A DNA stretch of 64,000 bases, from assembly GCA_002256485.1 (NCBI GenBank), contig NNSG01000001.1:190017-254016 (forward strand), read 5' to 3'. Of this stretch, positions 386-37,691 are shown piece by piece. Made by a program: the position numbers and the translations under genes. How positions within the stretch are numbered: position 1 is the first letter of the stretch; each line of letters begins with the position of its first letter. Source of the stretch: Fidelibacterota bacterium 408169 (GTDB lineage Bacteria; Fidelibacterota; Marinisomatia; Marinisomatales; TCS55). The notes beneath the pieces were generated by a model. The model was given only the letters and a program-made list of their open reading frames with translations, was not told the DNA's origin and made no database searches.

Positions 386-1408
386 ATGAGCGACAAACGT
401 ACAAAAGCAATTGAATTAGCCAAAACACAAATTGAAAAACAATATCGAGGTGAAGAACTATTTATCCAATTGGAGAGTGATAAACTTCAAGTTCGTGACA
501 ATGTAATATCTACAGGGTGTTTATCCTTAGATGTTGCATTGGGTGTGGGCGGAATTCCTAAAGGTCGTATTATTGAAATTTATGGTCCTGAAGGTTCGGG
601 GAAAACGACATTAGCGCTGCACATAGTTGCGGAAGCCCAAAAAGCGGGAGGCTACGCTGCATATATTGATATGGAACACGCATTAGATACGGAATATATG
701 AAAAAATTGGGTGTTGATACTTCTGAATTGATTGTTTCCCAACCGTCGTTTGGTGAACAGGCACTTGATATTACAGATACACTGATAAGAAGCAATTCAC
801 TCGATGTAATCGTTATCGATTCTGTCGCCGCTCTTGTACCTAAATCAGAGTTAGATGGTGAAATGGGCGATCATTTTGTAGGTTTACACGCGAGACTCAT
901 GTCCCAGGCAATGCGCAAATTAACAGGTACTGTAAAAAAGACAGATACATGTATCATTTTCATAAATCAAATTAGAGAGAAGATTGGTGTCATGTTCGGT
1001 AATCCGGAAACAACAACTGGAGGTCGAGCTCTTAAATTTTATTCATCGGTTCGCATGGAAATCCGACGCGTTACAGCCGTGAAAGAAGGAACAGATTTTG
1101 TTGGTTCACGGGTGAGAGTGAAAGTGGTTAAGAATAAAGTAGCACCACCGTTCAAATCAACTGAATTCGATATAATGTATGGTGAAGGAATTTCTTTTAT
1201 TGGTGATATTATTGATTTAGCAGTAGAAGGTGAAATTATCCAGAAAACCGGTGCTTGGTATGCATATAATGATGAAAAGATTGGTCAGGGCCGTGAAAAT
1301 GCAAAAGCATTCCTTAAGGAGAATCCGGATAAGCTGGAAAGTGTTGTTGCAGATGTAAAATCATTTTTGGGAATGAATCCGGAAGAGAAAAAAGAAGCTG
1401 AAGCGTAA
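386..1408 (+). CDS. recA: Recombinase RecA
   Basis: 340-residue RecA, full length for the family. It forms filaments on single-stranded DNA, drives homologous pairing and stimulates LexA self-cleavage in species that have it. Walker A is GPEGSGKTT at residues 67-75; the Walker B strand [12 protein letters not shown] and the L2-region sequence [22 protein letters not shown] are intact. The C-terminus is short and acidic (EEKKEAEA). A weak purine-rich site (AAGAGAG) precedes the ATG. No obvious LexA box was found in the 26-bp gap to the upstream gene, so any SOS promoter would lie within or before thpR. recX follows immediately. Confidence 0.98.
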
Positions 1409-1409
1409 A

Positions 1410-2042
1410 ATTACATCTATAAACCGACGAGGGAAAAAACATCCAAAACGGTTAATTACTTTTGATGATAAGAGCGTCTTCGAACTTTCCGAAGACGTTT
1501 TTGTTTCGACTAATCTTGAAGTAGGGAGTTTGGTCGATGAGAGCTTTATTGAAACATTTGAAGAAAAAGAAAATAGTCGTAAAGCGTTTCATAGCGCACT
1601 ATCGCTATTAAATTACCGAATGCGAAGCTCAGCGGAATTGCGGAAGCGATTAGCTGAAAAAGGATATAATGGGGACACAATTAAAAGTGTCATTCACAAA
1701 CTTCAAAAAAAGAAATTCATGAATGATGAAAAATTCGCCAGGGCATTTATTCATGATAAAATCAATTCCCGTTTACTAGGGCCTGTTGCCCTGCGGCGTG
1801 AATTAATCCAACACAAATTAGATTCTGTGTTAATCGAAAAGTTGATTCAGCAGGCTTATGAAGAAACACCAGAAGAAGAATTAGTGGAACGGCTTATGGA
1901 AAAACGAAGAATTTCCAAAGGGCAGAAGCTGACGCATAAAGAGAAAAACAGACTTTTGAATTTCCTAAAAAGAAGAGGGCATACGTGGGGAGTGATTAAC
2001 ATTATTTTCGACAAATGGTTATTGGTAACTGGTGAGAAGTAG
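1410..2042 (+). CDS. recX: Regulatory protein RecX
   Basis: Three-helix-repeat protein that binds RecA filaments and inhibits recombinase and coprotease activity. The core LNYRMRSSAELRKRLAEKGY and the HDKINSRLLGPVALRRELIQ repeat are typical. The first ordinary start is TTG at 1530, preceded by GTAGGGAG, but the same frame is open from 1377 and encodes the family N-terminus: [14 protein letters not shown], then LITFDDKSVFELSEDVF. Homology therefore places the true start near 1398-1410, where only CTG (1398) or ATT (1410) is available; I use ATT. The 5' end of the gene contains the recA terminator hairpin. The product is about 210 residues from 1410, or 170 from 1530. Confidence 0.85.
   Translation: MTSINRRGKKHPKRLITFDDKSVFELSEDVFVSTNLEVGSLVDESFIETFEEKENSRKAFHSALSLLNYRMRSSAELRKRLAEKGYNGDTIKSVIHKLQKKKFMNDEKFARAFIHDKINSRLLGPVALRRELIQHKLDSVLIEKLIQQAYEETPEEELVERLMEKRRISKGQKLTHKEKNRLLNFLKRRGHTWGVINIIFDKWLLVTGEK
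1475..1502 (+). terminator. Intrinsic terminator/attenuator hairpin between recA and recX
   Basis: Perfect 8-bp stem CGTCTTCG (1475-1482) / CGAAGACG (1490-1497), 7-nt loop, followed directly by TTTTT. It lies 67 bp after the recA stop and inside the reading frame that encodes the conserved RecX N-terminus. In E. coli recX is also expressed by read-through of a terminator after recA; by analogy this hairpin would keep RecX low relative to RecA (inference). Confidence 0.75.
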
Positions 2043-2155
2043 CTTGTGATAGAATATATATTTTCAGTTTTCTCAGCATAATCACAAAATTTTAGTATGC
2101 TTTCCTTCTAATGGAACCTGTTTGAGTATAATGAACAAGAACAGGAGTTAACGAT

Positions 2156-3895
2156 ATGCTAAAAAATATGGATCAATTTTCCACTAATGATCATACTATC
2201 CGTTCATTATTGGGACGAAAACCTACTGGTTTTGAATCAGATCTCATAAAACACATTTATTATTCACAGTATTTGAATAATCCCATCCCGGGAATTAATA
2301 AAATTCTCGATCAGAGTAAGAGCGATTTAAAGGTAGATGAAAAAACACAATTGATCGTGGGATTAGAAAGCAAAGGATCCATTACAACCTCATCAGTCTT
2401 AAGGCCATGTACTGCATTTGGAACAAAGCCTTCTATGAAATATCAGAGTAAACAGTCTAAAATTTCATTTGGGGTAGTTACAAAATTTGTTCAGAGGAAG
2501 ACTAATATTTACGGCACAGAGGATCTATTATTTCTTCAAGACAGTAAAAGCTTAAAAACAACATGTAAAGATATTATGGGATTGGAATCTGTCATTCTTA
2601 AACAGATCGATCCTGCTTCATTGGGGGCTGGTTTAAACTCAATTTCAAAGAATAAATTTGGAATGGATTTGAATTTATCTTCTGTTTCCCAAATTGAAAT
2701 TTTGTCTGATAAAAATACCCACGGTGTTTTGATTGTTGCAGATCCAAAATTTTCAGGAAAAATTAAAGGAATCTGCAGGAAGAATAAGCAAACTTGTTTG
2801 CATTTGGGAAACTTAAAATCTGTTCAATTTTTATCAATCTCCATTCGTAAAAAAACAAAAGGCAACATTCCTTTATCTGTCCTGAATATTATAGAACCTC
2901 CACAATCGACCATTGTACCGGCTATACAGAGTGATGATAAAAAAGACAGACTGAAAAATTATAAAGAACTGAAAAATTACTCTAATCAAGTCATGGATGT
3001 GTGGAAGATAATTAATAAACAAAAATGGTCTGTATTTAAACCCCAAAAGGATGCAATCGGAACTTTATCACTTATACCCGGAAAAAATGATTTTGCCGTC
3101 AGTATCCCGGACAATATTCATTTGCTGAAAAAAGATCTTAAAACCGGCAGCCGAATCGCTGCATCAAATGCTGCCAGGCAATTAGTGTGTAAAGGTTATA
3201 AACCAATCGGCATGGCATTGATTATGCACGGTGGAAATATGGAGAAAAATGATGACGTTTGGCATATACAGGAATTGTTTATGGGTGTTTCTGAAGCGTG
3301 CCAGATATTGCGTACTGAAATGTTTCGCCCTATAATAACGTGTGATAATAAAAAACATCCCAGTTTAGAATTATGTGTCGCGGGAAAGCGATTTAATAAT
3401 TCACCAACGGTTAATGAATCATTCATTAGTGAAAACGATTTCATTACCATGTTGGGCAGTCATCGCGGGGAATTGAACAGCAGTATGTATCAGGAAAAGA
3501 TTCAGAATCAAAAAAGCGGTTCAATTCCGACTGTTGATTTACTAATGGAATCTCGAGTTCAAGAAACGATACTGCAAGGCATTCAGACAGGATTGATCAA
3601 ATCTGCTGTTAATATCTCTAATGGAGGATTAGCCGTATCATTGGTAAAATCTCTGCAACATGCCGAAAAGGGTATAGGTGCCCGAATTCATCTTTCCAGG
3701 AAATTGAGACAGGATGAAATGCTTTTTGGTGAAACACAAGGAATGGTTGTCGTGTCAATCGGTGAAAAAGATCTTATGGAATTTGAGCGAATTTGTATGT
3801 CCATTGGAGTGCCCTCAACAACCATTGGCAGGGTCACAAATGATAATCAATTCAAATTTAACGATGTGGTTAAAATAGATAGAAAAAAACTATAA
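2156..3895 (+). CDS. Degenerate PurL-like (FGAM synthase II paralogue), probably non-catalytic
   Basis: 579 residues, against about 740 for small PurL. Landmarks in PurL order: linker IRSLLGRKPTGFESDL (about 16-31); a tandem AIRS-like layout with ASNAARQLVCKGYKPIGMAL (about 336-355), GVSEACQILRTE, and the C-terminal block NISNGGLAVSLV...LFGETQGMVVVSI (about 485-530) ending in IGRVT. The catalytic region expected as MWSEHCSYK reads IYYSQYLNN, so the active-site His is absent, and the glycine-rich nucleotide loops are also not recognisable. No stop or frameshift interrupts it, so it seems to be maintained rather than decayed. A good Shine-Dalgarno (AGGAG, 8 bp spacing) and a TATAAT at 2127 precede it. 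Its neighbours are not purine genes. A pseudoenzyme role is inferred; the function is unknown. Confidence 0.7.
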   Translation: MLKNMDQFSTNDHTIRSLLGRKPTGFESDLIKHIYYSQYLNNPIPGINKILDQSKSDLKVDEKTQLIVGLESKGSITTSSVLRPCTAFGTKPSMKYQSKQSKISFGVVTKFVQRKTNIYGTEDLLFLQDSKSLKTTCKDIMGLESVILKQIDPASLGAGLNSISKNKFGMDLNLSSVSQIEILSDKNTHGVLIVADPKFSGKIKGICRKNKQTCLHLGNLKSVQFLSISIRKKTKGNIPLSVLNIIEPPQSTIVPAIQSDDKKDRLKNYKELKNYSNQVMDVWKIINKQKWSVFKPQKDAIGTLSLIPGKNDFAVSIPDNIHLLKKDLKTGSRIAASNAARQLVCKGYKPIGMALIMHGGNMEKNDDVWHIQELFMGVSEACQILRTEMFRPIITCDNKKHPSLELCVAGKRFNNSPTVNESFISENDFITMLGSHRGELNSSMYQEKIQNQKSGSIPTVDLLMESRVQETILQGIQTGLIKSAVNISNGGLAVSLVKSLQHAEKGIGARIHLSRKLRQDEMLFGETQGMVVVSIGEKDLMEFERICMSIGVPSTTIGRVTNDNQFKFNDVVKIDRKKL

Positions 3896-4037
3896 ATGGT
3901 ACATATGATATTGAAGATGCCGGAGTGGTCAATATCATGCGTTGCAGAAGCTTTCGGTTAGTTATCACATTTATTATGAAAAAGACTCTATAATATATTT
4001 TTCATAGCTTCAGGAAAGACAGTAGTTATTTCAAAGA

Positions 4038-4820
4038 TTATAATATACCCATAATAATATCACTCATTTTCCTGTGAATAAGTGAATTCGTAACCAGGAT
4101 TTCATTTTCATAGATATCATAACTCGAACTATCCATTTTACTAACTTTCCCTCCGGCTTCAGTGGCGATCAAAATACCGGCGGCAGAATCCCAGGGATGT
4201 AAATCAAATTCCCAGAAACCATCTACTTTCCCGCAGGCAACATGGCATAAATCAACTGCTGCAGCTCCTAATCGCCGGACGCCTTGGGTTATGTCAGTAA
4301 AATGTTTGAATAATTTCATGTTCCTTTCCCATACTTCCCCATGTTCATACCCGAATCCCGTTACCAATAAAGATTGACTTAAATCATCTGTTTTTGAAAC
4401 AGATATTTTTTCTCCATTGCAAAAAGAACCCTGATCCTTGATTGCTGTATAAATATTGTTAACCGGTAATTCGATAATACAACCGATCAAAGGTTTATTT
4501 TTATAATGCAAAGCGATGGAAACGCCGAATGGGGGAAAACCATGAACAAAATTAGTTGTACCGTCCAAAGGGTCTATAATCCATTGAAAGTCAGCATGGG
4601 GGAGGGTGGATCCCGATTCTTCCGCCAGAATGCCGTGATCGGGAAATTTCGCTGTTAGATGTTCTCGAATGATCTGATCGGCGTCCCGATCGGTTTTTGT
4701 AACAAGATCCGTCTTTCCCTTAAAATCTGCAATCCGTGGCGTTTCCAAGGCAGTTAGAATAATTTCTGCGGCTTTTTCAGCAGCGCTTACAGCCACATCT
4801 AGAATGTGGTTCAAATTCAA
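4038..4820 (-). CDS. suhB: Inositol-1-monophosphatase family protein
   Basis: 260-residue Mg-dependent sugar phosphatase (IMPase/SuhB). Motif EESG (about 67-70), metal site WIIDPLDGTTNF (about 80-91) and second motif WDSAAG (about 210) are all intact. It hydrolyses inositol phosphates or related sugar phosphates in the cytosol; SuhB proteins of E. coli type also join rRNA antitermination complexes, but that role cannot be read from sequence. The start is TTG, lying directly after the alsT stop codon (TAA-TTG), with its ribosome-binding AAGGAAAAA inside the alsT 3' end, so translation is coupled. Confidence 0.93.
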   Translation of the reverse strand: MNLNHILDVAVSAAEKAAEIILTALETPRIADFKGKTDLVTKTDRDADQIIREHLTAKFPDHGILAEESGSTLPHADFQWIIDPLDGTTNFVHGFPPFGVSIALHYKNKPLIGCIIELPVNNIYTAIKDQGSFCNGEKISVSKTDDLSQSLLVTGFGYEHGEVWERNMKLFKHFTDITQGVRRLGAAAVDLCHVACGKVDGFWEFDLHPWDSAAGILIATEAGGKVSKMDSSSYDIYENEILVTNSLIHRKMSDIIMGIL

Positions 4821-6383
4821 TTATTTTTCCTTATAGGGAATATGTTCCTTACTAAAATAATCTTTTGTCATTACTTTGAGCGCAGTAGACAGAAAAATAA
4901 TGGAAATGAGATTGGGAAAAGTCATGATCCCCAGTGCTGCATCACCAAACGCCCAGATTGCTTCCAATTCAGCAATGGCTCCAATAAATACAAACAGCAG
5001 AAAAACCCATTTATAAGTTATGATAGCTTTTTCACTGAAAAGATAAACAACTGATCTATCGCCGTAATAAGACCAACTGATAGCCGTAGAAACGGCAAAC
5101 AACAACACAGACACGGTTACAATTTTATCGCCAAAACTAAAAAGAAATCCCAGACCTTCTTTAAAAGCATACGACGTAAGAAGACTACTGTTGAAAAGAC
5201 CTACATGGAGAATATCCTTTACCTGCTGGCTTGTCGGGTCTGTAATATTCATAAAGAACTGTGTATGCTGCCATGCACCTGTTGTTATGATGACCAGTCC
5301 TGTCAATGTGCAAATTATCAACGTATCTATAAATGGGCCCAGCATTGCAACAGATCCTTCACGTATGGGATAATTAGTTTTTGCTGTTGAGTGAGCAATT
5401 GCTGCGCTACCCTGACCCGCTTCATTGGAATACAGTCCTCGCTTTATACCCCAGAGCATTGTTAATAAAATTCCACCTCCGGTTCCGGCAATGGTTGCCG
5501 GCGGATTGAAAGCCATTTTAAAGATCAATTCAAAGCTTGGCCCTATTTTGTCAATATTAACCAGTAATATTATAGATGCTGCAACGACATAAATGACTGC
5601 CATTATGGGAGCAAGATAGCCGGTCACATGTCCGATCCGTTTAATACCGCCGATGATAACCATTCCAATTACAGTAACAAGCAGGACTCCATTAATCACT
5701 TGTTGAAATGAAAGTTCGAATCCTGTCCATACATGATGTTTTAGCGTTAGAAAATGCTCTGTCCCGAGGAACTGCGACATTTCTGAGTATATTTGATCTG
5801 AAACAGTAAATGCCTGGATGGCATTTCCTGTCGCAAATGAACAAATAACTGCAAAACTAGCGAATGCTACTGCCATCCATCTCCATTTTTTTCCCATTCC
5901 ATGCTCAATGGTATACATGGGACCGCCGGCTGTATGGCCATCATCCCTGATTTCCCTGTACTTTAACGAAAGAGAACATTCAGCGTATTTTAATGTTGTA
6001 CCAAAAAATGCTGTAACCCACATCCAGAATAACGCACCGGGACCACCATAATACAGCGCAGTGGCTACACCGGCGATGTTACCTATTCCAACCGTTGCGG
6101 ATAGGGCAGTAGTTAATGCCCTGAAATGGTTTAAATCTCCTTCATCTTCCGGATTGTCATATTTGCCTCGTGTAACATTTATTCCGTGTTTAAAGTAGCG
6201 TAGTTGAGGAAATCCTAATTGTATGGTCGCATAAATACCCGTTCCTACTAGTGCGATTATCATAAGTGGAATGGGCGAAAAGGAGGGAAATGACCACACA
6301 CCTTCGAAAAATTCTGTTCCAAATAATACTAATAATGTTAGGATGATAGCGAAAGATATAAATCCTGCTTTTGATCTATTCAT
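4821..6383 (-). CDS. alsT: Sodium:alanine/glycine symporter family protein (AGCS)
   Basis: Polytopic inner-membrane amino-acid carrier of the AGCS family. The family signature is visible as ALSATVGIGNIAGVATAL near residue 100 and GLYSNEAGQGSAAIAHS near residue 320; about ten hydrophobic segments follow. I prefer the ATG at 6383, which has AAGG 8 bp upstream, over an in-frame TTG at 6416. It is divergent from comEC across a 98-bp AT-rich gap that must contain both promoters, and is co-directional with suhB. Substrate (alanine or glycine with Na+) is inferred from family. Confidence 0.93.
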   Translation of the reverse strand: MNRSKAGFISFAIILTLLVLFGTEFFEGVWSFPSFSPIPLMIIALVGTGIYATIQLGFPQLRYFKHGINVTRGKYDNPEDEGDLNHFRALTTALSATVGIGNIAGVATALYYGGPGALFWMWVTAFFGTTLKYAECSLSLKYREIRDDGHTAGGPMYTIEHGMGKKWRWMAVAFASFAVICSFATGNAIQAFTVSDQIYSEMSQFLGTEHFLTLKHHVWTGFELSFQQVINGVLLVTVIGMVIIGGIKRIGHVTGYLAPIMAVIYVVAASIILLVNIDKIGPSFELIFKMAFNPPATIAGTGGGILLTMLWGIKRGLYSNEAGQGSAAIAHSTAKTNYPIREGSVAMLGPFIDTLIICTLTGLVIITTGAWQHTQFFMNITDPTSQQVKDILHVGLFNSSLLTSYAFKEGLGFLFSFGDKIVTVSVLLFAVSTAISWSYYGDRSVVYLFSEKAIITYKWVFLLFVFIGAIAELEAIWAFGDAALGIMTFPNLISIIFLSTALKVMTKDYFSKEHIPYKEK

Positions 6384-6481
6384 AGTTACCTTGATTTGAT
6401 TAAAAATTGATGCCAAGTTTACATGACTGTTTCCAGAGTGGCAAACGGCTTTTATGTTAGTTAATTAATATTTTAAATAAA

Positions 6482-8815
6482 ATGACATTCATTAATATTT
6501 TCAAAAATAATTCACTCATATATATTTCAGTTTCATTTATAATTGGTTTGATCCTTGGTGGAACTGAAATATCCATTATAATTCCTCTATTTATAACTGC
6601 TTTAGGAATTGGGCTATTATTTATAAAACGAGATATATATTTTATAAGTGGAATTTTGTTTTGCACTTCATCATTTGGATGGCAGATGATGTTTATTGAA
6701 ATATCACACATGAACTCAAAACGGTCAACTGCGAATCAATTACACGAAACAACTATTTCATTCAGCAGTGAAGTATTGGAAATACAATCAACAGAAAAGG
6801 GATTTAAATATAAAATCTCACTGAATGAGTATCATGGTATTGATGTTTGGTTTTTTAACAAGAAGCAGTTGTTTTGTGAAATCGGTGATACCATTTCAAC
6901 CGTGGGTGAATTCCAAGAAATTGGACCTGTACGCAATCCCGGAGAGTTCGATTTTCTGAATTATTATAATCGTCAAAATTTATATGGATGGATATTTGCC
7001 GATGAACATTATGTCATCCGCATTGATAAAAATGAAGCATTTCAACTAAACAAGTTTATAGATGCAGTTCGTGATAAAATTAGAGCATCTTTTAATTCTT
7101 ATTCTCCAGGTATTGCGGGAGACTTATTGAGTGCATTGATATTGGGTGACAAATCAGATGTGGAACCATCCATAAGAGATTCGTTTGCAGAAACGGGTGT
7201 GATTCATGTCTTGGCTGTTTCTGGACTGCATGTGGGTTATGTACTTATCATTTTACTTTTACTAAAAAATATGCTGGGTCTCCCATGGGGATGGGACAGA
7301 ATTATTGTTATTTTAGGATTAAGTATATTTGTTATGATTACAGGAGGTAAGGCAAGTGTTGTGCGGGCGTCAATTATGGCCGGTCTTTATATATTGGCAC
7401 CTATTGTGAATCGTCAAGTTAATATCTGGAATATAATTGCTGCAGCCGGATTTATTATTCTCTGTTTTAACCCTTTGGACCTTTTTGATTTGGGATTTCA
7501 ATTGAGTTTTCTCGCTGTTATTTCAATTGTATTCTTTTATAATTGGCTGAATGAAACACTTCCAGAAAAAATCAGAGTTAATAATATTCAAAATAGTAGT
7601 GTACGATTTATTTGGGGATTATTTCTGGTTTCATTTGCTGCTCAAATAGGAACATTGCCTTTAACGTCTTTTGTATTCGGGAAAATTCCTGTAGTAGCGC
7701 TGGTCGCTAATGTATTCATAGTTCCATTGATAGGTGTGTTGGTGGGTATTGGTTTTGCTATTTTATTTTTAATCTGGATACCTGGTATTGGTGTTGCTCT
7801 TGGAAATACTGCTTGGCTAATTTCAAAAATCATTACATCAATGACGTATTTTTTCTCCGGTTTAAAATACAGTTCGGTTCAAATGACATTTTCTCCATTT
7901 CACATATTGCTTTATATTATGATTATTTTTTCAATCGTGATGTTTTGTAACAGTCAAAAAAGAAAATATGGAATTATATGTATGTTGATTGTAAGCAATT
8001 TACTTATTTGGAAATGGGTAACTAATGAAAAGAAGATGGATATAATATTTATGGATGTTGGACAAGGAGATGCAGCAGTTGTTATTTTTCCGAATGATAA
8101 AACAATGTTAATTGATGCAGGTCAGAGGAATCAATATGAAGATAAGGGAAGTGAAATTGTCCTTCCTGTTTTGAAATATTTAAATATAGAAAATCTTGAT
8201 TGGGTTGTAATGAGCCATCCCCATAGTGACCATATTGGTGGATTAGTGTCTCTAATCAATGAAGTAAAAATTGATACTCTTTGGGATTCATTCATTCCAT
8301 ATAAATCTTGGACGTATAGAACAATTTTAAGCAGAGCAGAAAGCAATGATGTCCACGTGATACATCCACATCAGGGACAGGTGATGAAATTATCAGACAA
8401 CGTAATTGTCGAATTTTTAGCACCGGATTCTATTTTTGCAGTTTCAGAGCGTAATGTAAACAATGCCAGTATTGTCTTTAAATTAACGTATGGTAAAACC
8501 AGCGCATTATTTACCGGAGATCTTGAATTTGAAGGCGATCATTTTTTGCTACCTTATGAAAACATACTTAATGTTAACGTTTTAAAAGTCGCTCACCATG
8601 GTTCAATCACAAGTACGACATCAACTCTGTTGGATTTTATTCAGCCAGATATAGCTGTTGTTTCAGTAGGTAGGAAAAATAAATTCAGTCATCCCTCATC
8701 AATTGTTATGGAAAGGTTGGTGGAGCGAAAAGTACTTATTCATCGCACAGATGAGAACGGTGCTCTTTGGTTAAGATCAGATGGCGAAACATTTACGAAA
8801 GTGCTATGGAAATAA
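6482..8815 (+). CDS. comEC: DNA internalization competence protein ComEC/Rec2
   Basis: 777 residues with the full three-part architecture: N-terminal DUF4131-like domain with membrane segments and an OB-type region (1-190), Competence transmembrane domain (about 210-500; note SALILGDKSDV and VHVLAVSGLHVGYV) and C-terminal metallo-beta-lactamase domain with HPHSDHIGG near residue 578 and AHHGS near 705. It forms the channel that carries single-stranded DNA across the inner membrane in natural transformation. No com partner genes are in the window. The ATG has no clear Shine-Dalgarno. The 3' end overlaps the start of rnhB by 10 bp. Confidence 0.96.
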   Translation: MTFINIFKNNSLIYISVSFIIGLILGGTEISIIIPLFITALGIGLLFIKRDIYFISGILFCTSSFGWQMMFIEISHMNSKRSTANQLHETTISFSSEVLEIQSTEKGFKYKISLNEYHGIDVWFFNKKQLFCEIGDTISTVGEFQEIGPVRNPGEFDFLNYYNRQNLYGWIFADEHYVIRIDKNEAFQLNKFIDAVRDKIRASFNSYSPGIAGDLLSALILGDKSDVEPSIRDSFAETGVIHVLAVSGLHVGYVLIILLLLKNMLGLPWGWDRIIVILGLSIFVMITGGKASVVRASIMAGLYILAPIVNRQVNIWNIIAAAGFIILCFNPLDLFDLGFQLSFLAVISIVFFYNWLNETLPEKIRVNNIQNSSVRFIWGLFLVSFAAQIGTLPLTSFVFGKIPVVALVANVFIVPLIGVLVGIGFAILFLIWIPGIGVALGNTAWLISKIITSMTYFFSGLKYSSVQMTFSPFHILLYIMIIFSIVMFCNSQKRKYGIICMLIVSNLLIWKWVTNEKKMDIIFMDVGQGDAAVVIFPNDKTMLIDAGQRNQYEDKGSEIVLPVLKYLNIENLDWVVMSHPHSDHIGGLVSLINEVKIDTLWDSFIPYKSWTYRTILSRAESNDVHVIHPHQGQVMKLSDNVIVEFLAPDSIFAVSERNVNNASIVFKLTYGKTSALFTGDLEFEGDHFLLPYENILNVNVLKVAHHGSITSTTSTLLDFIQPDIAVVSVGRKNKFSHPSSIVMERLVERKVLIHRTDENGALWLRSDGETFTKVLWK

Positions 8816-9738
8816 TAGCAGGTGTTGACGAAGCAGGTCGAGGTCCGTTAGCCGGTCCTGTAACTGCAGCAGCAGTTATTTTACCTGATGACCATACCAT
8901 TACTGGTTTGACTGATTCTAAAAAATTGTCAGCAAGTCATCGTGAAAAACTCTTTGACGAAATATATAAAAATGCAATTAGTGTGGGAATTGGTATAGTG
9001 GAAGTAAATGAGATTGATAAAATCAATATTCTTCAAGCAACTTACAAGGCGATGTACAAAGCATTAGGAAATCTTGACTCTAAACCGGACAAAGCATTGG
9101 TTGATGGTTCTACTCTCCCGAACCAGATTATTCCCAATGAAGGTATTATTAAAGGAGATGATAAGGTGGATTGTATTCGAGCAGCATCTATTATTGCAAA
9201 AGTCACACGAGATCGAATAATGGAACAATTTGACATCATATTTCCTGAATATGAATTTGCTAAGCATAAAGGATATGGAACAAAAGTTCATCTTGAAAAA
9301 TTGCGGGAATATAAAGCGACTCTCATTCACAGAAAATCCTTCAGGCCAGTTAAAGAAAATTTGCCTACTATTACATGGTTGCAAAATAATCGAAAAATAG
9401 GACAGTGGGGGGAAAAATTGGCAGCACTGGAATATTACAAAAATGGATATAAAATCCATGCATTGAATCATCATTGCGCACCTTATGGTGAGATTGATAT
9501 TGTAGCAGAAAAAGATAATGAAATGGTTTTTGCAGAAGTAAAAACCGCTGCAGGAAAAATATTAGGCGGAATTGAAGACCAAGTTGATGAACTAAAATTG
9601 CAGAGATTAAGCGATGCTATTGATAAATACATTATGGATTATGAATTAGAAAAGGATATACGATTGGATGTTTTTGCTATAAGGCTCGGAAAATATGGCC
9701 CCAAATTGAAACATTTCAAAGCTATAGAACTTGAATAA
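8806..9738 (+). CDS. rnhB: Ribonuclease HII fused to YraN/UPF0102 nuclease-like domain
   Basis: 310 residues from the ATG at 8806 (a longer frame from 8767 adds residues with no family match). Residues 1-195 are RNase HII: GVDEAGRGPLAGPV carries the first catalytic Asp-Glu pair, and ALVDGS, IIAKVTRDR and KGYGTKVH follow. Residues about 197-310 are a complete YraN domain: GQWGEKLAALEYYKNGYKI, then YGEIDIVAEKDNEMVFAEVK, the restriction-nuclease-like E-D-ExK core. In many bacteria rnhB and yraN are adjacent separate genes; here they form one uninterrupted frame. RNase HII removes ribonucleotides from DNA and RNA primers. The role of YraN is uncertain, and the fusion suggests a joint DNA-repair step (inference). 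Confidence 0.95.
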   Translation: MEIIAGVDEAGRGPLAGPVTAAAVILPDDHTITGLTDSKKLSASHREKLFDEIYKNAISVGIGIVEVNEIDKINILQATYKAMYKALGNLDSKPDKALVDGSTLPNQIIPNEGIIKGDDKVDCIRAASIIAKVTRDRIMEQFDIIFPEYEFAKHKGYGTKVHLEKLREYKATLIHRKSFRPVKENLPTITWLQNNRKIGQWGEKLAALEYYKNGYKIHALNHHCAPYGEIDIVAEKDNEMVFAEVKTAAGKILGGIEDQVDELKLQRLSDAIDKYIMDYELEKDIRLDVFAIRLGKYGPKLKHFKAIELE

Positions 9739-31737: not shown

Positions 31738-34152
31738 ATGAGTTACAATCATAAAAGTTTAGAAAAAAAGTGGCAAGCGTTTTGGGAAGAAAACGGAACA
31801 TTTAAAGCTTCTGAAAACCCTAAAAAGCCCAAATATTATATTCTGGACATGTTTCCTTACCCATCGGGGGCCGGGCTTCATGTGGGACATCCGCTGGGAT
31901 ATATTGCTACGGATATCGTCGCCCGCTATAAACGCATGAAAGGCTTTAATGTGCTCCATCCCATGGGCTGGGATGCGTTTGGACTTCCGGCGGAACAATA
32001 CGCTATTAAAACAGGGACTCACCCTCGTGAAACAACCAAAACAAATATTGATAATTTCCGTCGCCAAATAAAAATGCTTGGTTTTTCTTATGATTGGGAT
32101 AGAGAAATTAATACAACTGATACCGGTTATGTAAAATGGACGCAATGGATATTTTTACAGCTTTACAATAAAGGATTAGCATATGAGGCTGAAAAGCCTG
32201 TGAATTGGTGTCCGGAATTAAAAGCCGTCTTGGCTAATGAAGAAGTTGTTGACGGAAAATCCGAAATCGGTGGACATCCGGTCCATCGCGTTCCCATGAG
32301 ACAATGGATGCTGAAAATCACTGATTACGCTGAATCGTTATTATCCGGATTGGATGACCTTGATTGGCCCAACAGCGTTAAAGAACTACAAAGGAACTGG
32401 ATAGGCCGGTCAGAAGGTGCTGATGTTGATTTTAATGTTGTTGACAGGGAAGACGTCATTACTGTGTTTACGACTCGTCCTGATACGTTATATGGAGCGA
32501 CATACATGGTATTAGCACCTGAGCATCAGTTAACCGATGAATTGACATCTGCAGACCAACAGGATGCCGTTAAAAATTATCAGGAGAAAGCCAGTCAGAA
32601 ATCGGATTTAGAAAGGGGAGAACTCAATAAGGAAAAAACAGGTGTTTTTACAGGAAGTTATGCTGTTAATCCGGTTAATGGAGAAGAGATTCCCATCTGG
32701 ATAGCTGATTATGTATTGATGACGTATGGTACTGGTGCCATTATGGCTGTTCCCGGACAGGATCAGCGCGATTGGGATTTTGCGAAAGAATTCAATTTAC
32801 CTATCATTCGTACTGTCGAGCCAACAGAAGATTTTGATGGTGAGGCATTTTTAGGAGAAGGCCTGGCGATAAATAGCGACTTTCTAAATGGATTGAATAT
32901 TAGAGATGCAAAGGCAAAAATTATTACATGGTTAGAGAAGGGAAACAAAGGCAAGGGAACTGTACAATATAAACTACGTGATTGGCTGTTTTCTCGTCAA
33001 AGATATTGGGGAGAACCTATGCCGATAATACATTATGGTGATAATGTTAAACCATTGGATGAATCAGATTTACCTTTAGTATTGCCGGAAGTTGAAAAAT
33101 ATGAACCCACAGGCACAGGTGAATCCCCTTTAGCAAACATAGCTGAATGGGTTGAAATCAAAAATGAAGAGGGTGAAGTTGTGGGATTGCGAGAAACGAA
33201 CACCATGCCGCAATGGGCAGGTTCATGCTGGTATTACCTTCGATATATTGATCCAAAAAACAATGAGAATGCATGGGATTCAGATAAAGAATCCTATTGG
33301 ATGCCCGTTGATTTGTATGTGGGTGGGGCAGAGCACGCTGTTCTTCATTTGCTATATGCCCGATTCTGGCATCATGTATTGCATGATTTGGGCTTTGTTT
33401 CAACGAGAGAACCATTTCAAAAGCTATTTAATCAAGGCATGATTCTCGGTGAAGATGGTTCAAAAATGAGTAAATCCCGTGGGAATGTGATCAATCCTGA
33501 TGATGTTGTAGATGAATTTGGTGCTGATTCCATGCGCTTGTATGAAATGTTCATGGGTCCATTGGATAAATCAAAACCATGGCATACTGCAGGATTGCAG
33601 GGCTGTTCACGGTTTATAAAGAAATTATGGGATAAAGTATGTTCAGACGATGATATAAATGATTGTATAACTGGAGATATACCAAACAGTGAAACTATTA
33701 AGTTATTGCATCAGACTATTAAAAAGGTTGGAAATGATATTGAAGATCTTCGTTTTAATACGGCTATTTCACAAATGATGATTTTTACCAATCACCTGGT
33801 AACATTAAATGTAATTAACAAGGATATTTTAAGAACATTCACTCAATTATTGGCACCGTTTATTCCACATGCTGCTGAAGAGCTTTGGCGGCGTTTGGGA
33901 AAAGATTATTCTGTTACTTATGAACCTTGGCCTAATTTTGATGAAAACTTGGCTAAAGATGATCTAATAACTATAGCAATTCAAGTTAATGGAAAATTAA
34001 GAGCGAATATTGAAATTAATTCAAATGATAAAAAGGAAAGTGTATTAGATAAAGCAAAGAAAAATGAAAAAATAATGTCTTATTTATCAGGGTGTGAAAT
34101 TATAAAAGAAATATATGTGCCAGGGAGATTGATAAACTTCGTTATAAAATAG
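31738..34152 (+). CDS. leuS: Leucyl-tRNA synthetase
   Basis: 804 residues, class I synthetase. HIGH-type motif [16 protein letters not shown] (about 41-56), CP1 editing domain with [19 protein letters not shown] (about 240-258), and [11 protein letters not shown] near 576. It charges tRNA-Leu; a tRNA-Leu gene lies at 13.3 kb. No Shine-Dalgarno is visible before the ATG. It converges with the K+ channel gene across a 45-bp AT-rich gap. Confidence 0.98.
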
Positions 34153-34197
34153 AATATATTAGATTATTGTATTATACATAATATATATTATACGTCA

Positions 34198-35187
34198 TTA
34201 TCTTATTGATTTCTTTAATCGTTCTAAATTCTCCTTTGTCCCTATAACCATAATAGTTTGGTCTCTATGCAATACTTGATCAGAGCTTGGATTTACCATT
34301 ACATCTCCTTTTACGTCAATAATTCCTACAATTAATAGTTCATAATCCTCCCTTAAACGGCAATCTTTTACCATCATACCATCAAATCGATCCAATTCAC
34401 TCATTTGAATTTCATCAATTCCATAATCAATCGAAGTATGTTGCGGTGTTGTTATGGTAACACTGTCTTCCAATTGAGGGCTTAATAATAATTCAGACAT
34501 CTTGTGCCCTCCTGTTACATATGGATTTACAATTTTGTCCACACCGGCTCTGCGTAGTTTTGACGATGTATCAGTTACACTGCACCTGGAAAGGAGAAAA
34601 GCATTGCTGTTCAGCGTTCGAATAGACATACTGACAAATAAATTATCCTGATCTGTGTGTAATACAACGACGATCCCTTTTGCTTTTTCAACGCCGGCCT
34701 CGATGAGCGTTTCTTCTAATGTAGCATCTCCTTCAACATATAAAAATCCGTATTCCTCTATTTTACGTATTTTTTCAGGATTAAATTCAACGACGACGAA
34801 ATGCTGCTTTTTCTCATGCATTTCTTTTGCAATGACAGCTCCCATTCTGCCGTAACCGCAAATGATGTAATGATCGTGTAATCTTTTAATTGATTTTAGC
34901 ATTTTATTTCTCCGGTATAAGTCTAAACGGAACAATTCCTTACTATATTCTGAAAACAAATACGCAACACCTGTTACGCCAAATAATATGACTAGAATTG
35001 CCCAAATTTTGCCTGCACCGTTCAAGGGTTGTGTTTCACCAAATCCAACTGTAGAGAGTGTAATAATGGTCATATATACACTCTCCAAAACAGACCACTC
35101 TTCCCCAAGGCTGTAAAAGCCGAATGATCCGATAAAGATTACCAAACCAAAATAAACTAAAAATCGCAAGCGTGTTTGTAGTAGCAT
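34198..35187 (-). CDS. Two-TM potassium channel with RCK (TrkA-N/TrkA-C) domains
   Basis: 329 residues, MthK-like layout: two membrane segments (about 8-27 and 60-82) around a pore helix and filter TVGFGE (46-51), then a TrkA-N domain with CGYGRMGAVIAKEM (about 110-123) and VEGDATLEETL, and a TrkA-C domain near 250-325. The filter reads GFG instead of GYG, a variant seen in some K+ channels and compatible with K+ selectivity. It probably gates on a cytosolic ligand. Its start overlaps the upstream stop by 1 bp (TAATG). Confidence 0.92.
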   Translation of the reverse strand: MLLQTRLRFLVYFGLVIFIGSFGFYSLGEEWSVLESVYMTIITLSTVGFGETQPLNGAGKIWAILVILFGVTGVAYLFSEYSKELFRLDLYRRNKMLKSIKRLHDHYIICGYGRMGAVIAKEMHEKKQHFVVVEFNPEKIRKIEEYGFLYVEGDATLEETLIEAGVEKAKGIVVVLHTDQDNLFVSMSIRTLNSNAFLLSRCSVTDTSSKLRRAGVDKIVNPYVTGGHKMSELLLSPQLEDSVTITTPQHTSIDYGIDEIQMSELDRFDGMMVKDCRLREDYELLIVGIIDVKGDVMVNPSSDQVLHRDQTIMVIGTKENLERLKKSIR

Positions 35188-37691
35188 TATCCTATAATGA
35201 TTTCCGTCATTAATAATACATCAAAAATATTATACAGACCGTCATGATTTAAATCAATAACTTGTTGATGATACTCTGTTGGTACTTCCTCATTCATAAT
35301 AAGCAGGATTAATTCAATGATATCTTGGTAATTCACAATTCCATCACCATTCATGTCACCGGCAACTAATACCGGATTTGAATCAAATGTAAAATCCCAG
35401 ATACCTCGACCATATGTACCAAATCGGGCTGTATAAATATCCTGTATATATTCTACTGTCCAGTAGGTTTGGTCCGGAGCTGTCAATTCACTCATATCAC
35501 TCCATAAATTATCATCAGCAGAGAATATATAAGGCCCGACTTCAGTCGCTGCAAATAGTAATGATTCGTCAGGAAGTCCTTCTATATCAAATACAAGCGT
35601 GTTGGGAAGTCCATTGTACATTGTATTAAACGACAATCCATTATCTGTTGATTTAAACACCGGTGGGTTTGAATAACCGCTACCACCGATAACAACTGAA
35701 CCCAAATGTATATTAGACGGATGAATAGTTGCACCATAAAAGTAATGAGAATCAGGACCAGTAAAATTAGTGGACAAAGTCCAATTGACTCCTCCATTTG
35801 TACTTGAATAAAATTTTCCATTTGTTGTCAAAACATACCAATACGTGTGATCAATTTGAGAATAAGCCATCGCAGAAATTGATCCATCAAAATTAAATGG
35901 CATTTCCTGGATAGACATTCCTCCTCCTACTACAGTCATTTTGATCATGTGATTCCCACCATTTAATCCGCCGCCACCTAAATAAGCAATATTTGCACTG
36001 GAAGGATCATTCATGAGCGGTGGAAGCCATAGTTGTCCTGTACTGGTAAATTCCCAATAAACATAATTTACACTATTCACAATATCTTCATAATAAATTG
36101 AGAAGCCGGGGTAATTCATCCAAATACTTGAACCATTATTTGTTGATGTAATATGTCCGTAATCACCACTGATGACCTGTTCAAAATCTAGTACTCCTCC
36201 CGTATCATTACCCAAATGGCGCTGAAATCCCTGATCTTGGCTCCCTACATATATATGAAAAGGATCAAATCGACTGGTATAGGTTGAATAGTATTGACTA
36301 ACTCCAAGCCCATTTAATGATAAATTCAGTACTGTATTCAAATCATCATATGAAATGTAAACTCCACCGTCAGTACTGATAAGTTGGAATTCATCACCAT
36401 TTTCATCAAAAAAATAGCGAATTTCAGGAATATCAGCATGGAGGAATATTGACGGATTTCCATAGTAATCATACCAGTGATTAATCAAATTCCAATTTTG
36501 TCCCCCATCGCTGCTTTTGTATGCATCAACATATCCAATAGCAATTTTATCGGGGTCGATATTGGAACTATTCATGCTGTTGCTCATGAATGATCCTGTG
36601 GGTAAATCGCCTTGATTCGTCCATGTTACCCCGCTATCCATGGAACGAAAAAGTTCATCATCTACTCGTGCGAATAGAAATTCCGTACCATTCGAAACAC
36701 CACCTGACAAATTATTATTTCCACTGCTTTCAGGTGAAAATGATCCGACTAAAGAATAGGTATCATTCGCAGATATTTCATAAATGTTGCCATTGTTTTG
36801 AAGAAAAATTCCACCACTTTCATAACGTGGTGTCCACATTTCAAAGGAATCACCGGACATAGTAAAGCCATTACTAGCACGTAAATCAATTATTTGAGAA
36901 AATGATTGTCCCATATTTGTTGATTTATACACTGTAGAAATCATCTCCCAACTGGAGTAATCCCATTCAATGACCCCTAGATAAATAATATTTTGATTAT
37001 CAGGATGAACAACTGTTCTATATATATAGCCCCAATCTTGAAATGAACTCAACCCGGTCGCATCTGAAATAGTTAAACCATCGTCTTCAGTATAATTAAA
37101 ACTCTTACTGTTTGCAAAACATAACCTTGGCGAACCATTATTATCCAGCAATCGTAAAAAATGGATCCCTTTTAATTGACGATAATCCGTTAAAGACATC
37201 CACCCTGTTCCATCCAGATTCCCTTTCCAAATATTTCCACCGGAAGATGCAACAAATATCCAATCATTCACAAGGTCTACCTCCGCTACATGAATACGCC
37301 CTGCCTGATTATTACTACCCCGTTCAAACCATTCTCCTGGAATTTCACGAGATGTTAGTCTGGATTGGGGGTATTCACTTCTGGATTTAGACAGAATCCC
37401 TTGTTCAATCAGATTCTTCCTTTTTTCTACCACCCTTCTGCTCCGTTCATCGCGAACTGCTTTGTCCATGGCTTTCCAATCCGTGTCAGGATGGGCTTTA
37501 TGCATTTGACGTATATATTCCTTTCGGTGTTTTTTGAAATCCTTTTTATCTTTTTTGTACTGTATAATTTCTGTTGGACTTGGCAATGTACTGGGGTCAA
37601 TAACAGGTAGCGTCTGCAATGGTTGTAAATATAATTGTGAAATTATTACAACAATTGTAAACAAAAATAAAATAAGGATTTTTGATTTCAT
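35187..37691 (-). CDS. Secreted BNR/sortilin-type beta-propeller protein with C-terminal dockerin-like domain
   Basis: 834 residues. Signal sequence (about 4-20), then many sialidase/VPS10-like repeats recognisable as S-x-D-G-G-x-x-W (KSSDGGQNWNLI, SSTNGGVNWTLS, KSTDNGLSF), i.e. a WD-like propeller typical of exported proteins. The end has two calcium-loop repeats, DMNGDGIVNYQD and DLNHDGLYNIFD, the dockerin-type arrangement common at C-termini of exported Marinimicrobia proteins. No cohesin is in the window, so the tail may serve in calcium binding or surface sorting rather than a cellulosome. The stop overlaps the channel gene. Confidence 0.85.
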   Translation of the reverse strand: MKSKILILFLFTIVVIISQLYLQPLQTLPVIDPSTLPSPTEIIQYKKDKKDFKKHRKEYIRQMHKAHPDTDWKAMDKAVRDERSRRVVEKRKNLIEQGILSKSRSEYPQSRLTSREIPGEWFERGSNNQAGRIHVAEVDLVNDWIFVASSGGNIWKGNLDGTGWMSLTDYRQLKGIHFLRLLDNNGSPRLCFANSKSFNYTEDDGLTISDATGLSSFQDWGYIYRTVVHPDNQNIIYLGVIEWDYSSWEMISTVYKSTNMGQSFSQIIDLRASNGFTMSGDSFEMWTPRYESGGIFLQNNGNIYEISANDTYSLVGSFSPESSGNNNLSGGVSNGTEFLFARVDDELFRSMDSGVTWTNQGDLPTGSFMSNSMNSSNIDPDKIAIGYVDAYKSSDGGQNWNLINHWYDYYGNPSIFLHADIPEIRYFFDENGDEFQLISTDGGVYISYDDLNTVLNLSLNGLGVSQYYSTYTSRFDPFHIYVGSQDQGFQRHLGNDTGGVLDFEQVISGDYGHITSTNNGSSIWMNYPGFSIYYEDIVNSVNYVYWEFTSTGQLWLPPLMNDPSSANIAYLGGGGLNGGNHMIKMTVVGGGMSIQEMPFNFDGSISAMAYSQIDHTYWYVLTTNGKFYSSTNGGVNWTLSTNFTGPDSHYFYGATIHPSNIHLGSVVIGGSGYSNPPVFKSTDNGLSFNTMYNGLPNTLVFDIEGLPDESLLFAATEVGPYIFSADDNLWSDMSELTAPDQTYWTVEYIQDIYTARFGTYGRGIWDFTFDSNPVLVAGDMNGDGIVNYQDIIELILLIMNEEVPTEYHQQVIDLNHDGLYNIFDVLLMTEIIIG

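Follow-up and report, generated by a model that had tools for sequence, protein, structure and literature searches.

A degenerate PurL-like protein next to recA and recX in Marinisomatales, probably a displaced purL maintained mainly for its C-terminal AIRS domain

The window analysed here is a stretch of 64,000 nucleotides from Fidelibacterota bacterium 408169 (order Marinisomatales; genome G000). At 2156..3895 on the plus strand it encodes a PurL-like protein of 579 aa with an ATG start (PLL), interpreted as an orthologue of the ancestral small PurL that has degenerated and is non-catalytic. PLL is very probably the original purL of the lineage, which was displaced, degenerated in place and has since been maintained as a non-catalytic protein. 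A different, complete FGAM synthase encoded in a pur cassette would have taken over the reaction, and the stand-alone PurS partner would have disappeared. The old purL would have stayed at its locus, lost its catalytic half (N1-C1) and its nucleotide-site residues, and then been kept for a function carried mainly by the second AIRS C-domain (C2). We infer this order of events, and the function, from the fold, motif loss, synteny, selection and domain-wise constraint described below.

The preliminary description of the window had called PLL a PurL-like pseudoenzyme. The present analysis adds that the protein is probably a vertically inherited purL at its ancestral locus and not a stray paralogue, that selection appears to act mainly on C2, and that degenerate PurLs occupy the corresponding locus in other lineages too. 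Pseudoenzymes usually arise from a spare duplicate. PLL seems to have taken another route: a core-pathway enzyme gave way to a PurL of another type yet stayed where it was, and one of its domains is constrained as strongly as in the PurL that now works. No bacterial PurL pseudoenzyme was found in a literature search that covered part of the literature, and no published account of a displaced, retained PurL was found in a search that was thin on subscription journals.

Gene, domains and fold of PLL

The 579-aa ORF is preceded by a Shine-Dalgarno sequence (AGGAG, 2143..2147, plus strand) 8 nt 5' of the ATG, in agreement with the intact frame and good ribosome-binding signal described before. The location outside any purine cluster was likewise confirmed: recA (386..1408, plus strand) and recX (1530..2042, plus strand), the immediate neighbour, lie upstream, and an inositol-monophosphatase (IMPase) family gene (4038..4820, minus strand) and a Na:alanine symporter gene of the same conserved block (4821..6416, minus strand) lie downstream. 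No convincing promoter or terminator was found in the gap between recX and PLL; the region 1300-4100 contained 15 promoter-like sites, compared with 11.1 (sd 3.2) in shuffled sequences.

PLL begins with a remnant of the PurL linker domain (LGRxPxxxE; aa 12-41, 2189..2278), after which the position of SEHC is replaced (YSQYL region). The remnants of the first AIRS pair (N1-C1; aa 42-245, 2279..2890) have their catalytic and nucleotide loops deleted or substituted. The second AIRS N-domain (N2; aa 276-420, 2981..3415) is partly conserved (R341, G347, P350, G410). C2 (aa 421-579, 3416..3892) is strongly conserved and contains the motifs GSHRGELxxSxY, GARIHLSRKLRxDExLFGETQG, and ERICMxxGVPSTTIGRVT. 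All four segments lie on the plus strand.

Motif loss was read from an alignment of 63 PurL-like proteins, in which 127 columns were invariant (at least 95%) in 23 catalytic PurLs. In the 27 PLL proteins of the order, the His of SEHC, all of ESHNHPS, the GATGVGG segment, and SESQER were lost, the acidic D of SAHDISDGG was gone, and the C1 loop TGRDGIHGATFAS was deleted (gap in 96-100% at A221-S225). H48, H95, and H97 (L105 numbering; SEHC and ESHNHPS), which we take to be catalytic residues of PurL, were kept in 0 of 27, and the C1 loop presumably binds substrate, by analogy with PurM; motif roles are those described for PurL and PurM. The residues kept were mainly structural glycines, the linker LGRxPxxxE, and R341, together with the GEL..SxY loop, GG490-491, FGE524-526, and G558 in C2. 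The loss of SEHC and the nucleotide loops stated in the preliminary description is therefore correct, since SEHC, ESHNHPS, GATGVGG, TGRDGIHGATFAS, and SESQER are all absent. Its estimate that PLL is about 160 residues shorter than small PurL stood in the comparison with the 741-aa PurL of locus L105, from which PLL differs by 162 residues.

PLL scored 142.6 bits against NCBIfam NF002290 (cut-off 648) and 126.1 bits against TIGR01736 (cut-off 526), below the level of small PurL in both cases; the E values of the NCBIfam PurL models were 1.3e-41 and 1.4e-36. Pfam AIRS_C (PF02769) matched aa 428-567 with 51.7 bits (gathering cut-off 23.1), which places PLL in the AIRS superfamily, and Pfam AIRS (PF00586) reached 22.3 bits, just below its cut-off of 24. 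A sequence search of the PDB returned one chain, the Thermus thermophilus PurL (E 4.7e-14).

An AlphaFold2 model built from 34 sequences (the window protein, 31 other PLL proteins and two catalytic locus PurLs) had a mean pLDDT of 85.3 and a pTM of 0.86. The best Foldseek match was T. thermophilus PurL 3viu (E 3.2e-34, query TM 0.70). Superposition on this protein gave Z 34.0 (rmsd 4.9, 558 residues, 18% identity), with residues 4-579 of the model aligned to residues 6-711; other FGAM synthases gave Z of about 20-26. Because the model matches T. thermophilus PurL almost end to end, the domain order linker-N1-C1-N2-C2 claimed for PLL is correct. Single AIRS pairs of PurM, ThiL, HypE, and SelD matched parts of the model with Z of about 20-22, below that of PurL; PLL also differs from these proteins in that both halves are covered and the ATP-site residues are gone. 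With small PurL (NF002290 and TIGR01736) PLL shares the whole fold, the domain order, the linker motif and the C2 motifs; it differs in its missing catalytic and nucleotide motifs, its shorter length and its position away from pur genes.

The locus in relatives and the working PurL

A scan of contigs with PLL-derived patterns found 43 loci, all under Neomarinimicrobiota/Marinimicrobia, "bacterium" or FCB group titles, and a PLL-type match was present in 36 of 61 genomes of the order (two partial). The gene order at most PLL loci was dnaX-ybaB-recR-pgsA-pgpA-cinA-thpR-recA-recX-PLL, and at the others uvrC-PLL; downstream, the IMPase and symporter genes followed either directly or with an FAH hydrolase gene in between (several neighbour names in relatives were assigned by eye from sequence). 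Since the upstream gene is recX at most loci and uvrC at others, the conserved order upstream may reflect history and not function, and recA and recX were rejected as functional neighbours. The FAH gene lies directly 3' of PLL at many loci, but not in the window genus, where the FAH-family gene of the window genome lies elsewhere (contig C2, position 91361; 42% identity). FAH hydrolase as an obligate partner was rejected as well, as G048 and G059 carry PLL and have no FAH match; it stays a lead.

At the corresponding locus, a complete small PurL is found in other families of the phylum. In L105, L106, and L107, a PurL of 741-745 aa lies directly 5' of the IMPase and symporter genes, as PLL does in the window, so that the IMPase gene adjoins the catalytic PurL on the same, downstream side. 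The locus PurL of L102 has 746 aa. Motifs of full-length locus PurLs were read in L102, L105, and L107: SEHC and ESHNHPS were intact in the first two, and L107 had SEHC and an X inside the second motif. The L105 protein matched T. thermophilus PurL at E 5.5e-182. Catalytic locus PurLs of other classes lie after uvrC and/or before FAH.

The second, catalytic purL proposed for the window genome was found on contig C4 of G000. It encodes a PurL of 765 aa with SEHC and ESHNHPS, followed by purM and, 3' of both, PurQ (438-aa frame). In relatives the cassette order is purA-purL-purM-purQ-purC-purE (purL, purM, and purQ assigned by families; purA, purC, and purE by eye). This PurL is of a different type from the locus PurL. 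Four genomes with a catalytic locus PurL had no cassette PurL, and their 35-37% matches were the locus PurLs themselves, except that G061 had one extra, archaeal-looking PurL (L115), which may be contamination.

PurS, judged by a profile that a diverged or fused PurS would escape, gave no match in the window genome (12 of 14 control genomes were positive). It was present in 4 of 4 genomes with a catalytic locus PurL versus 0 of 4 with PLL, and in 1 of 61 relatives (G018, with the cassette PurL type only and no PLL match). The full-length PurL at the same locus and the PurS pattern together make PLL best read as a displaced orthologue and not a stray paralogue.

Cassette PurQ proteins of relatives (418-427 aa; L190 1378-2658, L193 474-1730, L194, L195) carried at the C-terminus a conserved extension (about 190 aa) that had no Pfam match and, in a comparison with one PurS sequence, no likeness to PurS. 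The G120 assembly contained two cassette-type PurL frames (L196 on contig C64, and contig C108; 80% and 75% identity to the PurL of G000), possibly through contamination or strain mixture. In five PLL genomes that were at least 90% complete (G001, G005, G016, G026, G032), no PurL was found, nor a PurM or PurQ over cut-off; purH over cut-off was also missing in the last four, with a 34-aa purH end detected in G026, and G001 had a purH with one in-frame TAG. Because several pur genes are clustered and a purH end remained in G026, missing contigs may explain these absences, which do not establish PLL as a sign of purine auxotrophy.

Degenerate locus PurLs in other lineages

In family f21, which belongs to another class, all 10 locus PurLs examined lacked both SEHC and ESHNHPS; in its genus g55 the degenerate locus PurL lies after uvrC and before FAH. 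Besides this degenerate protein, genomes of f21 (L204-L207, L154-L163) encode a PurL of a third type, with frames of some 1000 aa, which may mark a separate displacement. The L207 protein has 1004 aa and a PurS-like N-terminus just below the Pfam cut-off. PMC3261824 describes an mdPurL of some archaea with a longer, PurS-like N-terminus. The f21 protein is similar to it in layout, but it would be the displacing catalytic enzyme and not PLL. In family f29, 3 of 3 locus PurLs were degenerate, each before FAH, and the cassette-type PurL shared 64-66% identity with that of the window genome.

The C2 of f21 g55 had 48% identity to its nearest relative, the catalytic PurL of f20, versus 35% to the PLL of the order; the corresponding values for f29 were 44 and 32%. 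The nearness to catalytic f20 PurL points to independent losses of catalysis and suggests, from these sequence identities, separate origins of the degenerate locus PurL in f21, f29, and the window order. If they arose independently, the f21 and f29 cases form a natural experiment in which the catalytic job of PurL and a non-catalytic one come apart, and which names C2 as the domain to examine.

Trees were built with all groups together (one from 63 sequences, with nine near-duplicate or long rows and five cassette PurLs omitted, and a second of 33 rows for AU tests) and with single groups (15 of 18 catalytic locus rows plus one degenerate group: nine rows for the order, three for f21 or two for f29). 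When the PLL of the order was the sole degenerate group, its sister was the catalytic PurL of the class it belongs to (94/91). In the all-group tree this placement was disfavoured (AU p 0.022), f29 joined the PLL of the order (88/90), and f21 took no firm position. Alone, f21 and f29 also took no firm position, with AU values of 0.306 and 0.503 for joining the class of the window. Long branches occurred throughout these trees, and the all-group trees gave one degenerate group or two.

Constraint on C2 and possible functions

The dN/dS (NG86) of PLL was 0.135, 0.152, and 0.122 for unsaturated pairs of the window genus and 0.206 for a g2 pair; for comparison, close pairs gave 0.024 for recA and 0.17-0.23 for recX. 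C2 alone had 0.05-0.06 in the genus and 0.10 in g2. Its synonymous divergence (pS 0.50-0.54, three close genus pairs) equalled or exceeded that of the other parts of PLL; since synonymous change is not lowered, the constraint is on the protein, and constraint at the DNA level or an overlapping gene was rejected as the reason why C2 is conserved. Among 175 phylum genomes searched, 35 of the 36 strongest PLL matches had no in-frame stop; the orthologue of G086 had one in-frame TAA, and the frame was split in L078, L101 (with N), and L103.

Mean pairwise identities of PLL and cassette PurL in the same six genomes were 26.7 and 69.3% for the linker, 19.4 and 84.0% for N1, 24.3 and 76.0% for C1, 28.2 and 77.6% for N2, and 55.3 and 57.1% for C2 (minima 45.7 and 48.6%), where one near-identical genome pair inflates the PLL means and the partial G067 PLL was omitted for linker, N1, and C1 (10 of 15 pairs). 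Across more families, the C2 of PLL averaged 50% and its N1-C1 18%; within groups of catalytic locus PurLs, N1-C1 was about 79% and C2 56-60%. C2 is thus held as firmly in the dead protein as in working PurL, and the remainder is not.

No PLL match was found in g4, g8, f15, and part of f7. Sixteen recA regions from genomes without a PLL match were checked. Seven readable regions downstream of recX, all of family f1, showed a clean deletion with no PLL remnant, recX being followed directly by FAH (G007, G014) or by the symporter (G008, G015, G012, G030, G033). In G053 a PLL start lay at the contig end, and the regions of f7 and f15 held other genes or ended early. PLL is missing in several genera and is therefore dispensable there. 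The FAH hydrolase ORF of G007 (L230 2180-3253, 358 aa) has a C-terminal part that resembles RNase HI by eye, and appears to be a gene fusion in a genome that lost the PLL between recX and FAH. The recA match of a streamlined f15 genome (L222, G060:C3:11557-12534) has an in-frame TAA, which may be an assembly error.

That PLL is a decaying pseudogene, the remnant of a displaced purL in the course of being lost, is extremely improbable. Its missing motifs, the N-terminal half close to noise level, the deletions in several genera and the interrupted frames of G086, L078, and L103 would fit such a remnant, but the gene is found in many families of the order, its C2 conservation equals that of the working enzyme, and plain decay was rejected on the intact frames together with a dN/dS of 0.12-0.21, well below 1. 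PLL appears instead to be under purifying selection, mainly on C2. Of the earlier proposal of a repurposed structural or regulatory protein rather than decay, the second part therefore stands. An ancient paralogue, duplicated before the radiation of the phylum, would account for the tendency of all-group trees to split degenerate from catalytic proteins. It is nevertheless very unlikely to be the origin of PLL: these trees have long branches, the PLL of the order taken alone is sister to the catalytic PurL found in its class, degenerate and catalytic PurLs occupy the same locus and occur together in no genome of the tables examined, and the C2 of f21 g55 and f29 shares more identity with catalytic f20 PurL than with the PLL of the order.

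For the function of a displaced purL, AIRS domains allow PurL-derived proteins to pair, and PurS was not detected in PLL genomes, which would suit an auxiliary subunit of the FGAM synthase that took over, for instance in place of PurS. This role is very unlikely, as G007 (96% complete), G050 (98%), G054 (92%), and G060 (96%) have a cassette PurL and no PLL match, and f21 keeps its degenerate protein beside a PurL with its own PurS-like N-terminus; the PurQ extension could also replace PurS, even if likeness to the one PurS compared was not found, and the five PLL genomes without PurL speak against it too, subject to missing contigs. A new enzyme, with C2 and N2 retooled, could use Cys547 of the ERICM motif, which was present in 27 of 27 PLL proteins of the order versus 0 of 18 catalytic locus PurLs, in a strongly conserved C2. 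This is unlikely, since nucleotide-site residues are gone from both halves and the position is T or A in the 13 degenerate proteins of f21 and f29. Since features of the order such as Cys547 are absent from f21 and f29, a function shared with these families, if any, would rest on the older C2 features (GEL loop, FGE, GR).

That C2 is retained as well as in working PurL suggests that this domain has a further, non-enzymatic job. With a chance somewhat short of even, PLL may be a non-catalytic docking or scaffold protein that acts through C2. The PurL body would then be the frame, and the candidate binding face for a partner protein or ligand would be the surface of C2 (GSHRGEL loop, GARIHLSRKLRxDExLFGETQG, ERICM helix). 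When the three degenerate lineages are considered jointly, there is a nearly even chance that the job of C2 predates displacement and that each takeover, by the 765-aa cassette type in the window order and f29 and by the 1004-aa type with the PurS-like N-terminus in f21, cost the catalytic half and spared C2, exposing a moonlighting function. If the catalytic ancestor had already used C2 in this second role, the term "repurposed" may not fit.

A parallel is the gammaherpesvirus vGAT, which we take to be derived from large PurL. PMC6868034 describes vGAT (ORF75 family) as an amidotransferase homologue without key active sites that recruits cellular PFAS. PLL is like vGAT in being a PurL homologue without active-site residues; it differs in that vGAT is viral. 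Against the tegument family TIGR01739, PLL scored 22 bits (cut-off 716.1) and is not a member.

Two further observations were made in the window. The 323-aa RNase HII ORF at 8767-9738 (plus strand) has a C-terminal third that resembles a YraN/UPF0102-type domain by eye, a possible RNase HII-YraN fusion. GC skew changes sign at about 34000-36000, with the cumulative maximum near 34 kb, which would mark a gene strand switch or a replication landmark.
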